This document shows, in pieces, positions 13,699 to 19,529 of a stretch of 25,299 nucleotides of DNA; position 1 is the first letter of the stretch; each line of letters starts with the position of its first letter. The position numbers were made by a program, and so were the translations under genes. The notes beneath the pieces are model-generated. The model worked only from the letters and a program-made list of their open reading frames with translations. It made no database searches and was not told where the DNA came from. Source of the DNA: a virus; IMG/VR virus record IMGVR_UViG_3300025483_001136, positions 1-25,299 of that record, one strand, 5' to 3'.

Positions 13699-13728
13699 AT
13701 TATAGTTTGATCCAACGATCATTGTCAA
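13699..13728 (-). promoter_or_regulatory. Sigma70 promoter of the GME-led part of the sugar island
   Basis: Minus strand: consensus -35 TTGACA (13723-13728), 18-nt spacer, consensus -10 TATAAT (13699-13704). It lies in the last codons of the RmlB-like gene and gives a leader of about 18 nt before the epimerase ATG at 13674. The rest of the island could be transcribed from here. Confidence 0.7.
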
Positions 13729-14722
13729 GTGTCCACTTGACAACTTCACAAATACGATCACGAATATTTTCTGGTTCCCAACCCATCTTACGCATTTTTC
13801 TACCCGATAGTGCATATCGAAGATCATGTCCAGGACGAGAGGAGTGAAAGTCAACCATCTCATACTTAAGTTCTTTACCCTGAGCATCAGCAATTATCTG
13901 TGCAAGTTGAAGATTGTTGAGTTCTTCTGCACCAACGATGTTAAACTTAGGACACCTTGCATCACCGTAATTCCCAGTTTCAACTATAGTGTCCTGTGCT
14001 AGAAGGAAAAGCAGAGCGTCAGAAACATCTTCTGCATGAATATAATGACGAGAACCAGGAATTGTTTTAGTTTCATCACTATGAATTGTGATTGATTCAC
14101 CATCACGAACACTCTTGATGCACATGGGAATAAACTTTTCTGGGTGTTGACGTTGCCCAAAGACATTCATTGTGTGGGTAATGTATACGGGTACCCCATA
14201 AGTGTTGTGGAAAGCAACTGCGAGTTCCTCACCACCTGCTTTAGTTGCACTGTATGGGTTGGTAGAATTATAACGATCGTTCTCATCATACAGAATACCG
14301 TCTGGTGCAGGTCCAAAGACTTCATCAGTACTAAAATATACAAACCTTTCCAAACGATCCAAACCACGAGCATAGTCAAGGATGTTGCAGGTTGCCACAA
14401 CATTATCCATGACAAATTCCATAGGGTATTCAATACTACGATCAACATGAGAACCAGCAGCAAGGTGAAGAATGTAGTCAACCTTACCAATGTCTGCAGC
14501 AATCAGTGGATTCACTGCTGCTTTCAAATCATGAAATACAACTCTCACACGAGATCGATCTTCTAGAGAAAACTCTTGGAGAACATCATGAAGTCGATTT
14601 AGATTGCCACTAAAATCAAGACGATCTAAAGTTACAACTTCCCAGTCAGTATTAATAAGAATTTGAGATATAAGATGATGTGCAATAAAACCCGCACCAC
14701 CAGTCACCAAAGCTCTTTTCAT
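13700..14722 (-). CDS. RmlB-like nucleotide-sugar 4,6-dehydratase/epimerase (SDR)
   Basis: Encodes 340 residues of the extended SDR family. VTGGAGFIA (6-14) binds NAD, with the last Gly of GxxGxxG changed to Ala. YFSTDEVFG (129-137) supplies the Thr132-Asp133-Glu134 triad of dTDP-glucose 4,6-dehydratase, and YSATK (157-161) is the YxxxK pair. NVFGQRQHPEKFIP and a late SSRPGHDLRYALS also match RmlB. So 4,6-dehydration of a nucleotide sugar is the best guess, giving a 4-keto-6-deoxy intermediate; the nucleotide (dTDP, GDP or CDP) is not certain. It is the first gene of the island, directly behind the terminator-promoter at 14747-14781. Confidence 0.85.
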   Translation of the reverse strand: MKRALVTGGAGFIAHHLISQILINTDWEVVTLDRLDFSGNLNRLHDVLQEFSLEDRSRVRVVFHDLKAAVNPLIAADIGKVDYILHLAAGSHVDRSIEYPMEFVMDNVVATCNILDYARGLDRLERFVYFSTDEVFGPAPDGILYDENDRYNSTNPYSATKAGGEELAVAFHNTYGVPVYITHTMNVFGQRQHPEKFIPMCIKSVRDGESITIHSDETKTIPGSRHYIHAEDVSDALLFLLAQDTIVETGNYGDARCPKFNIVGAEELNNLQLAQIIADAQGKELKYEMVDFHSSRPGHDLRYALSGRKMRKMGWEPENIRDRICEVVKWTLDNDRWIKL

Positions 14723-14781: not shown

Positions 14782-14938
14782 CCATAAGGTCTTGCCATGC
14801 ACGCCACTTACTCTTATGGTAAAGTAAGAAACCCGAGGGGTCGATTAACCCATCCCGACCAGGGTTGTTTACGTGTCTCCATCACGGACATATTAGGGAT
14901 GACTCCACCAGGGTAAGTTTATGGTCTATCCAAGACTG
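14782..14938 (-). ncRNA. Candidate structured RNA with H-type pseudoknot next to the terminator
   Basis: This 157-nt stretch is clearly GC-richer than its neighbours and holds no normal gene. On the minus strand, CUUACU (14823-14828) pairs with AGUAAG (14807-14812). CCAUAAG (14813-14819) pairs with CUUAUGG (14782-14788). The pairs interleave, giving an H-type pseudoknot with directly abutting stems, immediately before the terminator. Further upstream CAUCCC can pair with GGGAUG, and ACCCTGGT occurs twice 49 nt apart. A TTGACA straddles the preceding stop codon but lacks a good -10. Weinberg-type 'wcaG' RNAs occur in cyanophages before sugar-epimerase genes, which fits this context, but I cannot confirm the match. 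Alternative: a small protein needing a +1 shift (see findings). Confidence 0.5.
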
Positions 14939-15508: not shown

Positions 15509-15755
15509 TTACAACATCCCTTACATAACAAGGAACACCATCTGGATCTAACCAACAAGTATATTCATGATCTTCCATAGCAGTTAACAACTGCATTTGA
15601 TTATCACAAAGATACATATCTTTATACCGACCAGTATAAGAATCTACTTTTTGAATTCGACAATCCGGTTTACCATTGATTTCTAAAGTCCCAACTTCAA
15701 CATAACGATAAGGAAAACGTTCTAGAAGAACATTTGGTTTTTGTACAACGTTCAT
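15498..15755 (-). CDS. Hypothetical protein, 85 aa
   Basis: Encodes 85 residues, predicted mostly beta, with Cys at 32, 50, 67 and 76 (for example DCRIQKV, YLCDNQ, TCWLD, PCYV). It is soluble, with no signal peptide. The start abuts the preceding stop and the end overlaps the 2OG-oxygenase-like gene by 11 nt, so it belongs to the same operon from the promoters at 15999-16132. No family recognised. The spaced cysteines might bind a metal, but the spacing is not a standard zinc finger. Confidence 0.6.
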   Translation of the reverse strand: MNVVQKPNVLLERFPYRYVEVGTLEINGKPDCRIQKVDSYTGRYKDMYLCDNQMQLLTAMEDHEYTCWLDPDGVPCYVRDVVSAQ

Positions 15756-15976
15756 CAGGCAACCTCAACAGAAATTTTAAGATCAGAATAAAGGCAGTCC
15801 ATCATAATTTCATAATCATCAAGTGGATCACCAGAAAAAATTACTCCATTAGATTCATAATATTTACGAACCTTCTTAAATAATTTTGGGTTTTTTACAT
15901 CTAAGAAAATTTCACCTTTTGCAGCAGTACGAAGGGTATCCAAATCCTTCGTTTTGAATTTTTCAGTCAGTGCCAT
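15755..15976 (-). CDS. Hypothetical protein, first gene behind tandem promoters
   Basis: Encodes 73 residues: an N-terminal basic part (MALTEKFKTKDLDTLRTAAK), then a mixed alpha/beta part (FKKVRKYYESNGVIFSGDPLDDYEIMMD). No membrane span and no known motif. It stands first behind promoter P2 (15999-16027) and about 120 nt behind P1 (16104-16132). Its ATG lies 15 nt from a weak GGTAA element, so translation may depend on leader structure (inference). The one-base overlap with the next gene implies coupling. Confidence 0.6.
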   Translation of the reverse strand: MALTEKFKTKDLDTLRTAAKGEIFLDVKNPKLFKKVRKYYESNGVIFSGDPLDDYEIMMDCLYSDLKISVEVA

Positions 15977-15998
15977 TGTCTGTTTTGATTACCTGTAT

Positions 15999-16027
15999 AT
16001 TATAAGGTGTTGTGGTTATATAGTCAA
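15999..16027 (-). promoter_or_regulatory. Promoter P2 (near-consensus sigma70)
   Basis: Minus strand: -35 TTGACT (16022-16027), 17-nt spacer, consensus -10 TATAAT (15999-16004). Placed just after the pseudoknot RNA; transcription would start near 15992, 16 nt before the ATG at 15976. Confidence 0.7.
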
Positions 16028-16032
16028 GTGAG

Positions 16033-16097
16033 AGTAGGTTCCTATCGCCGCTGCTTCTGAACCTACTGAAGGGAAGCACCGCAGTTGATTTCTCAAC
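16033..16097 (-). ncRNA. Candidate small RNA or riboswitch-like leader: GNRA hairpin plus H-type pseudoknot
   Basis: Transcribed from P1, whose start should be near 16097. The RNA opens with a hairpin GUUGA-GAAA-UCAAC (16084-16097, GAAA tetraloop). It continues with interleaved stems: UGCUUC (16073-16078) with GAAGCA (16052-16057), and AGUAGGUUC (16059-16067) with GAACCUACU (16033-16041). Loops are 5, 1 and 10 nt, the geometry of a compact H-type pseudoknot as in preQ1, SAM-II or glutamine riboswitches. I cannot match it to a known consensus, and no U tract follows, so it may be a leader of 15755-15976 rather than a free RNA. Confidence 0.55.
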
Positions 16098-16103
16098 TCA
16101 TAT

Positions 16104-16132
16104 ATTATACTACCTCTAGTGTCCTCTGTCAA
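16104..16132 (-). promoter_or_regulatory. Promoter P1 (perfect sigma70 consensus)
   Basis: Minus strand: TTGACA (16127-16132), 17-nt spacer, TATAAT (16104-16109), a full consensus match. It overlaps the last codons of the 52-aa membrane protein gene and would start the structured RNA at about 16097. Confidence 0.8.
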
Positions 16133-16274
16133 ATGGTTCCCAGTGCTGCCAATTGTATTTGTGTACTGCCCACATTCCTATTATAGGAACGAAAATTAAA
16201 ATAGTTGATAGAAATCCTAATCCGTATGGGTTGTTTAATACAACGCCACAAAATCTAGCAAACTGTAACATCAT
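16116..16274 (-). CDS. Small single-span membrane protein, 52 aa
   Basis: Encodes 52 residues beginning MMLQFARFCGVVL. One membrane span (about 19-36, GLGFLSTILIFVPIIGMW) is followed by an aromatic, charged tail ending EPFDRGH. The first ATG overlaps the upstream TAA (TAATG), giving coupled translation with the gene after talC. Its 3' end contains promoter P1. No known family; shares the pattern of small membrane proteins encoded near talC in cyanophages, without known role. Confidence 0.65.
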   Translation of the reverse strand: MMLQFARFCGVVLNNPYGLGFLSTILIFVPIIGMWAVHKYNWQHWEPFDRGH

Positions 16275-16477
16275 TATGAGTCAAAATATTTTTGAAGGAC
16301 TGCAATACGTTCTTCTTCATGAGCAATAACATCCACTTGATCCTGAATAGCAGCAAGAACATCGGGATGTTCTCCAATACCTACAGGATTTTTAAGATAA
16401 ATCTCAATATTGAGTCTTGCCTTTTCAATATTACCAACAGCATCTGCTTTGAGTGCTTTTAAAATTTCATTTCTCAT
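16274..16477 (-). CDS. Small helical protein following transaldolase
   Basis: Encodes 67 residues from ATG 16477, which overlaps the talC TGA as ATGA; the frame opens 18 nt earlier inside talC but this start is better. The sequence MRNEILKALKADAVGNIEKA, then HPDVLAAIQDQVDVIAHEEE, predicts two or three amphipathic helices. It is probably a small helical bundle, translated together with transaldolase. I associate this type with talC-linked hypotheticals in cyanophages; no function is known to me. Confidence 0.7.
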   Translation of the reverse strand: MRNEILKALKADAVGNIEKARLNIEIYLKNPVGIGEHPDVLAAIQDQVDVIAHEEERIAVLQKYFDS

Positions 16478-17121
16478 TTTTGTACCAAATCCCAATCTTT
16501 CTGAAACAAATCTAAACCCTCTCTAGTCAAAACATGATCATACATATTCCAAAAAGTTTTTGGTGGTAGTGTACAAATACTTGCACCATACATGAAACAC
16601 CTAGAGACATGATGAACATCACGAACTGAAGCAGCAAGAACTTGTGTAGTACTAAAGTGTCTATCATATGTATTAGAAATAGCACGTATCAGTTCTACAC
16701 CACTAAAACTATTATCATTACATCTACCAACAAAAGGTGAGACATATGCAGCACCAGCACGACGTGCAAGAATTGCTTGAGCTACAGAAAAGATAAGGGT
16801 TACATTAACTCTTTTACCTGTAGCAGCAAGTGCTGTGCATGCCTTAAGACCTTCAATAGTACATGGAACCTTAATAGTAACATTCCGACAATTCTCAAAC
16901 TGCTTTGCTTGGTCAATCATTTCTTCTGCAGTGTCAGCAACAACTTCGGCAGAAATAGATTCGAAAACTTTAAACTCGTTTGATATTTCTTTAATGACTT
17001 CGACAGGATCTCTACCACTTTTTTTAATGATAGTTGGGTTTGTTGTGATACCTTCAATCATACCCGTTTCATGGGCTTTCTTGATTTCATCAATATCAGC
17101 AGTATCTAAAAAAAGTTTCAT
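16474..17121 (-). CDS. talC: Transaldolase (phage TalC/Fsa-like short form)
   Basis: Encodes 215 residues, the length of the short TalC/fructose-6-phosphate-aldolase-like subfamily. MKLFLDTADIDEIKKA (1-16) has catalytic Asp6, EGITTNPTIIKKSG (23-36) holds the phosphate-site region, and VTIKVPCT (81-88) has the Schiff-base Lys84. NVTLIFSVAQAILARRAGA and YVSPFVGR follow the family pattern. It transfers a dihydroxyacetone unit between sedoheptulose 7-phosphate and glyceraldehyde 3-phosphate. In cyanophages it pushes host carbon through the pentose phosphate pathway for NADPH and ribose. The promoter is at 17189-17217. An ATGA overlap couples it to the next gene. Confidence 0.96.
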   Translation of the reverse strand: MKLFLDTADIDEIKKAHETGMIEGITTNPTIIKKSGRDPVEVIKEISNEFKVFESISAEVVADTAEEMIDQAKQFENCRNVTIKVPCTIEGLKACTALAATGKRVNVTLIFSVAQAILARRAGAAYVSPFVGRCNDNSFSGVELIRAISNTYDRHFSTTQVLAASVRDVHHVSRCFMYGASICTLPPKTFWNMYDHVLTREGLDLFQKDWDLVQK

Positions 17122-18566: not shown

Positions 18567-19529
18567 TTATTCGATACTGTCAACAGCAGCAAGTGCTTTC
18601 TGACGAAGGTCTTCAGGCAGTGGAACATAACCAAGACCATCAGACATTGCCTGTGACTTCTCACTCAACATATAACGAAGAGTTTCCTTCACACCAGTCT
18701 TAGACTCAGGGTATGCTAGGACCCATGTCAGAGAGACAATAGGATATGCGTTGGCACCAGCAGGATTAGCATCAGCACCACGAAGTTGGTCGTCCAAGAC
18801 AATCTTACTCAAACCAGCAGCAGATGTTTCAGCATTTGCTGTGACATAGTTACCTGCCTTGTTTTGTAGTGATACTTGTTGAAACTTACCACCACTCACA
18901 TAACCATAGTTTAGATACCCGATAGCACCAGGAACTTGTTTCACTTGTGCAGCAACACCAGAGTTACCTTTACCACCAACACCAGCAGGCCACTTTACTG
19001 CCTTACCTGTACCAACCGTTTCTTTCCACTCAGGAGAGAATGCCGATAGTGAGTTAGTGAAACCTTTTGTGGTGCCACTACCATCAGAACGGAATACGGG
19101 AACGATAGTTTTACTATCACATCCAAAGGTAGACCAGTTAGTAACCTTACCAAGATATACATCAGCAAGTTGTGTCTGTGTCATCTTGACTTCACAACCA
19201 GGCATATTGTAAGCAGGAACAATAGCACCACCAGTCATAGGAATGTGAACCATTGGAATGTCCTGCTTCTCATCACTTACAGCACCATCACTGGCACCAA
19301 AGGCAACAGTTTTAGCAATATACTGACGAACACCAGCACCACTACCAACTGCTTGATAGTTTACTTGATTGCCAGTTTCACCTGCCATAGTTTGAAACCA
19401 TGCTTGATACAATGGAGCAGGAAATGTTGCACCTGCTGCATCAAGTCTGAATGTAGTGCTTTCTCCCGAACCACATGCCACCATTAGAGGAGTGGCAGCA
19501 GCGATTGTTGCGAGTGCTTTGAGTTTCAT
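18567..19529 (-). CDS. pstS: Phosphate ABC transporter substrate-binding protein
   Basis: Encodes 320 residues, usual PstS length. The signal peptide ends in LMVAC with Cys19 as lipobox cysteine, so it should be a lipoprotein facing the periplasm. DAAGATFPAPLYQAWF (30-45) is the PstS N-terminal motif. AVGSGAGVRQ, ASDGAVS and RSDGSGTTKGFT carry the phosphate-contacting Ser, Asp, Arg and Thr. It delivers phosphate to the host PstCAB transporter. Phages carry it to raise phosphate uptake in poor water. A pho-box-like element replaces the -35 of its promoter and a strong terminator follows, so it forms its own phosphate-controlled unit. Confidence 0.96.
   Translation of the reverse strand: MKLKALATIAAATPLMVACGSGESTTFRLDAAGATFPAPLYQAWFQTMAGETGNQVNYQAVGSGAGVRQYIAKTVAFGASDGAVSDEKQDIPMVHIPMTGGAIVPAYNMPGCEVKMTQTQLADVYLGKVTNWSTFGCDSKTIVPVFRSDGSGTTKGFTNSLSAFSPEWKETVGTGKAVKWPAGVGGKGNSGVAAQVKQVPGAIGYLNYGYVSGGKFQQVSLQNKAGNYVTANAETSAAGLSKIVLDDQLRGADANPAGANAYPIVSLTWVLAYPESKTGVKETLRYMLSEKSQAMSDGLGYVPLPEDLRQKALAAVDSIE

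Follow-up and report, generated by a model that had tools for sequence, protein, structure and literature searches.

Phages make several kinds of small structured RNA. One short structured example is the put RNA of phage HK022, which lies at the beginning of a transcript or close to it and needs no protein; put consists of two simple stem-loops, and its target in cis is RNA polymerase. The stable RNAs C and D from the tRNA cluster of phage T4 are small RNAs of unassigned function that are co-transcribed with tRNAs, and phages can carry mimics of ToxI. ToxI is a pseudoknot antitoxin RNA (PMC12373285), and abiF RNA has been reported in cyanophage S-CREM1 (PMC9964418). The known leader RNAs of cyanophages are wcaG and manA RNA (PMC2864571).

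The window analyzed here is a stretch of 25,299 nucleotides from an uncultivated virus (IMG/VR record IMGVR_UViG_3300025483_001136). A first-pass annotation had found no known riboswitch consensus for a leader on its minus strand and had suggested a search against Rfam covariance models. In this search (Rfam 15, positions 15950-16180) no family, riboswitches included, matched at E <= 10. No description of the element was found in open-access papers; subscription papers may hold one. By sequence comparison, the element represents a new and widespread family of structured cyanophage RNA without an Rfam match.

A pseudoknot RNA behind a perfect promoter

The features of the locus are as follows, in the direction of transcription.

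16116-16274, minus strand: phrog_1184 ORF, 52 amino acids, small membrane-type protein
16104-16132, minus strand: P1, perfect sigma70-type promoter TTGACA-17-TATAAT; most relatives have a promoter of this type at the equivalent position
16083-16098, minus strand: H0, hairpin at the 5' end, AGUUGA-GAAA-UCAACU, with its first base at the predicted +1 (16098/16097)
16079-16083, minus strand: UGCGG joining segment, in which C16081 pairs with G16049 and G16080 with C16050
16073-16078, minus strand: 5' strand of stem S1, UGCUUC
16068-16072, minus strand: loop L1, CCUU(C), of which CCUU is nearly invariant
16059-16067, minus strand: 5' strand of stem S2, AGUAGGUUC
16058, minus strand: loop L2, a single A (A in 150 of the 153 distinct cores collected)
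16052-16057, minus strand: 3' strand of S1, GAAGCA
16042-16051, minus strand: loop L3, GCGGCGAUAG, nearly invariant
16033-16041, minus strand: 3' strand of S2, GAACCUACU
15999-16027, minus strand: P2, TTGACT-17-TATAAT, which belongs to the downstream gene and lies outside the RNA element
15755-15976, minus strand: phrog_552 ORF, 73 amino acids, no function assigned

The RNA element thus spans about 66 nt (16098-16033, minus strand) and reads H0, UGCGG, S1 5' strand, CCUU, S2 5' strand, A, S1 3' strand, GCGGCGAUAG, S2 3' strand. The arms of H0 (A16098-A16093 and T16088-T16083) enclose a GAAA loop. S1 consists of 6 bp (16078-16073 with 16057-16052) and S2 of 9 bp (16067-16059 with 16041-16033), and together they form an H-type pseudoknot. 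The hairpin at the predicted P1 start and the two stems thereby agree in position and length with the first-pass annotation. An addition to it is the extension of S1 by two pairs, the covarying pair 16080-16050 and the invariant C-G pair 16081-16049. Single-sequence nearest-neighbor folding gave an unremarkable score (z = -0.8), since the folding program cannot score pseudoknots.

Both promoters were also confirmed. The -35 box of P1 (TTGACA, 16132-16127) lies within the last codons at the 3' end of the phrog_1184 ORF and is separated by a 17-nt spacer from the -10 box (TATAAT, 16109-16104), so that 12 of 12 positions agree with the consensus. P2 (-35 TTGACT, 16027-16022; 17-nt spacer; -10 TATAAT, 16004-15999) is one base off perfect, with 11 of 12 positions. 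The window contains four exact TTGACA-N15..19-TATAAT sites, where 0.05 would be expected. Transcripts of phrog_552 would come from P2, and also from P1 by read-through.

The suggestion that P2 serves to bypass the structured leader did not hold. Of 24 related loci that lack the RNA element, 20 have a P2-type promoter before phrog_552, and in S-SM2 and P-SSM2 such a promoter lies directly in front of the phrog_552-homologous gene. P2 therefore belongs to phrog_552, and the tandem arrangement represents two neighboring units and no regulated bypass.

The predicted position of the transcript start is a constant property of the family. In the window H0 follows the -10 box of P1 by 5-6 nt. In 121 of 138 distinct relatives the distance from the -10 box to the 5' arm of H0 is 6 nt; the RNA is therefore predicted to begin at +1. 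A -10 box with at least five of six matches combined with a -35 box with at least four of six was present in 74% of cases, compared to 1.2% in shuffled upstream DNA. A minority of copies (e.g., S-SM2 and Bellamy) lies directly after an ORF end and has a weak promoter. H0 itself is variable in sequence and loop length, and no hairpin of at least 4 bp was present in eight cases; the constant core therefore consists of UGCGG and the pseudoknot.

The window also contains host-like metabolic genes, encoding a phosphate-binding protein (PstS type) and a transaldolase (18567-19529 and 16474-17121 (-)).

Covariation in both stems of the pseudoknot

The first-pass annotation had staked the structure on conservation of the paired bases in relatives and on compensatory changes in both stems. 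In an alignment of 81 relatives, standard pairs fill 99.7% of the paired cells, compensatory changes on both sides occur in 13 of the 17 pairs, and the structure has thus survived this comparison. Cells in which both bases have changed numbered 230, compared to 76.5 in shuffled alignments, and none of 500 shuffles reached any of the measures. Shifting the pairing partners along the alignment abolished the covariation signal. After thinning to less than 90% identity, which left 35 sequences, all of the 11 highest-ranking pairs by APC-corrected mutual information belonged to S1, S2, or the extra pair 16080-16050, which is GC in 24, UA in nine and UG in two sequences of this non-redundant set. 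Evolutionary evidence for the predicted pseudoknot is therefore very strong.

The paired cells include 18 G-U and no A-C combinations, indicating selection on the minus-strand RNA; a feature acting at the level of DNA, such as a recombination site, was rejected on this ground. Across relatives CCUU in L1, the A of L2, GCGGCGAUAG in L3 and the UGCGG segment are nearly invariant. S2 varies between 8 and 10 bp, a single nucleotide separates S2 from S1 in 152 of the 153 cores collected, and L3 is 10 nt long in 149 of them.

Distribution and copy number

A structural parser applied to all DNA collected from IMG/VR and from isolates identified at least 409 instances with at least 153 distinct cores. 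The latter number is the fairer count, because some instances are overlapping stretches of one place. BLASTN searches identified the element in S-SKS1, S-SCSM2R, SynMITS9220M01 and ACG-2014f, with further matches in S-SM2, Bellamy, S-H68, S-B05, S-B43, and RB11-B. It is also present in P-SSM2, P-SSM5 and single-cell viral genomes, and by pattern scans of IMG/VR the element is frequent among uncultivated viruses. A pattern scan of genome_contigs gave at least 118 matches; among the matches listed none meets the structural test, and they were therefore read as chance. No instance was found among the bacterial genome loci collected by pattern. The family is a well-supported addition to the structured RNAs of viruses that rank among the most abundant in the sea, and it places an unannotated RNA at exact coordinates in dozens of sequenced genomes. 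Carriers include model isolates such as P-SSM2 and S-SM2, in which it can be tested at once.

Searched with a model of the element (R1), eight complete genomes each gave a single strong match, as did a partial record (W09). With the same model, 20 of the 22 uncultivated contigs with any match carry one copy and two carry two. In two contigs (L227 and L504) two copies lie 1-2 kb apart, the second of which overlaps an ORF end and has a weak or absent H0.

A second promoter-led, conserved and structured-looking leader (GACGCAAGTAAGTCGCGGAACGGA...) was observed on the reverse strand near position 2542 of stretch L736 (S-SKS1, ~197.4 kb) and near position 6799 of L714 (S-SM2, ~186.8 kb), and the GACGCAAGTAAGTCGCGGAACGGA motif also follows a promoter at 217067 in ACG-2014f. 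In two of these three phages it stands 11 nt before a small ORF starting with MLELL. The S-SKS1 stretch gave no Rfam match at gathering score for this leader.

Genes behind the element

In about half of the distinct contexts a tRNA lies directly behind the knot, being tRNA-Arg(UCU) for 53 distinct cores, tRNA-Pro(UGG) for 18 and tRNA-Gly for one. In 71 of these 72 contexts the distance from knot to tRNA is 2-5 nt, and in the exception it is 8 nt. Otherwise an ORF follows, with a median linker of 19 nt among the 47 cases with linkers of at most 40 nt; these linkers are 78% AU and a Shine-Dalgarno-like sequence is found in only two of the 47. The downstream ORFs are unrelated and comprise phrog_552, several small uncharacterized ORFs, and ORFs which we take from their sequences to be PurM-like and gene 32-like. 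Terminator-like sites within 90 nt downstream were found in only four of 151 contexts (two tRNA contexts and two inside ORFs). Upstream of the element, the preceding unit ends in a terminator more often than in shuffled sequence (26 of 150, compared to five in shuffles).

A role in tRNA processing was considered and rejected. One locus (L086) has the same promoter and tRNA-Pro and lacks the element, which is therefore dispensable for the tRNA, and the element also stands before ORFs.

In some S-SKS1-like phages (L022 and L039) a conserved non-coding stretch, AGTTAAGGTCAGAGAAGTAAATGGAGCATGGGAGGC..., lies just after the element; it gave no Rfam match in L022.

Possible functions of the RNA

The first-pass annotation had proposed a regulatory RNA made from a dedicated strong promoter, in the form of a riboswitch, an attenuator or a free small RNA. 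A structured and probably regulatory RNA is strongly supported by the conservation and the promoter-fixed start, and a free small RNA is possible and is the form we favor. The riboswitch and attenuator forms were not upheld, as the downstream genes are unrelated and neither a recurrent terminator nor a Shine-Dalgarno switch is present. The fixed +1 start, the low copy number and the indifference to the next gene together point to an RNA that serves the whole infection rather than one gene.

We tentatively favor a small RNA that acts in trans and is made as a removable leader, although we put its likelihood slightly below even. A strong promoter of the P1 type would start the transcript at the first base of H0, and from such a promoter, which resembles those of host sigma70, synthesis would be expected early in infection. 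In tRNA contexts the RNA would be freed from the primary transcript by RNase P, and in ORF contexts by cleavage in the AU-rich linker. In the window P2 would separately supply the phrog_552 mRNA, making the RNA and the gene independent units. The compact knot would then act in trans, its invariant loops binding to a protein or machine of either the host or the phage. The case for action in trans rests mainly on the copy number, which stays low, at one per genome, although the element is portable. Of the two ends that a trans-acting small RNA should have as its own, the 5' end is fixed by the promoter and no terminator stands directly after the element; given the near-absence of terminators, an autonomous small RNA would depend entirely on processing. 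Two further points count against it: the constant short gap to the next gene is equally expected of a cis-acting leader, and two contigs carry two copies.

The element may instead be a 5' module acting in cis, a reading that is possible but doubtful. The nascent knot would bind RNA polymerase in the manner of HK022 put, or would block 5'-end-dependent decay by RNase E/J, so that the carrier transcript is better elongated or kept. The close and constant linkage to the gene behind it (2-5 nt for a tRNA, about 19 nt for an ORF), almost never interrupted by a terminator, argues for action in cis, and both the locking of the element to +1 and its indifference to the downstream gene fit as well. However, a portable enhancer would be expected before many operons and not once per genome, other perfect promoters in the same genomes have no element, and tRNAs hardly need protection of their 5' end. 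That the element is a riboswitch or ligand-sensing attenuator of the gene behind it is improbable, even though compact conserved pseudoknots with invariant loops are typical of small aptamers and some copies lie 14-25 nt before a start codon, including those of purM-like genes. Against this stand the many tRNAs in the place of an mRNA, the lack of a pathway shared by the downstream genes, the missing expression platform and the absence of a match to any Rfam riboswitch at E <= 10.

Three other readings were weighed. As a special case of action in trans, the RNA could be a decoy against an RNA-binding abortive-infection toxin, like the ToxI mimics of phages. A single H-type pseudoknot RNA in a phage, with a host-type promoter and a patchy distribution, would suit such a role; yet tandem repeats are lacking, neither abiF RNA nor other Rfam antitoxin RNAs match, and we know of no target in picocyanobacteria, which makes a decoy very improbable. 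It is still harder to accept the element as a self-cleaving ribozyme (HDV-like or theta type) that trims the tRNA leader. It adjoins phage tRNAs, and P1 and P2 of the HDV ribozyme have the same pseudoknot topology. But the one nucleotide between S2 and S1 leaves no room for P3/L3, P4 is absent, the conserved UGCGG lies upstream of the expected HDV cut site, no Rfam ribozyme matches, and the element also precedes ORFs. The reading to which we give least credence is a replication-origin transcript, an R-loop primer RNA as at oriF and oriG of T4. One copy per genome, a strong promoter with a structured 5' end, and the location of the P-SSM2 copy close to the detrended GC-skew minimum would agree with an origin, whereas the S-SM2, ACG-2014f and S-SKS1 copies lie away from a skew extremum and the element is absent from related phages.

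Returning to the trans-acting small RNA, its wider form is rather speculative. A single-copy, early pseudoknot RNA would bind a protein or polymerase, by which T4-like cyanophages would take over a host process. This RNA, carried at the 5' end of tRNA and mRNA transcripts and removable from them, might then define a functional class that is new among phage RNAs.

Comparison with known RNAs

By its description, the put RNA of HK022 is similar in position, whereas the element described here is a pseudoknot and usually occurs once per genome. ToxI and abiF RNA are small RNAs that act by binding a protein; the element differs in having no repeats and no adjoining toxin gene. The abiF model (RF03085) gave nothing over cut-off in 20 phage records and no match at all in the window. 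T4 RNAs C and D, also likened by description, differ in that the element stands before protein genes as well.

The wcaG (RF01761) and manA (RF01745) RNAs are likewise structured, stand before varied genes in T4-like cyanophages and have no assigned function. Their models do not match the element, and both match elsewhere in the same window or genomes. In the window, wcaG RNA (46.9 bits; 14793-14893, minus strand) is followed by a terminator-like hairpin (14783-14759), and both stand just before a GDP-mannose 4,6-dehydratase-like gene (13700-14722). Like the element, manA RNA can start just after a strong promoter, as in P-SSM2, where it lies 1.2 kb upstream of the pseudoknot element, or sit between tRNAs, as in ACG-2014f, where the pseudoknot element, tRNA-Arg, manA RNA and a second tRNA are arranged head to tail as one unit (L721, 6899-7313). 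Compared to wcaG and manA RNA, the element is shorter, is built as an H-type pseudoknot and has its start fixed at +1.
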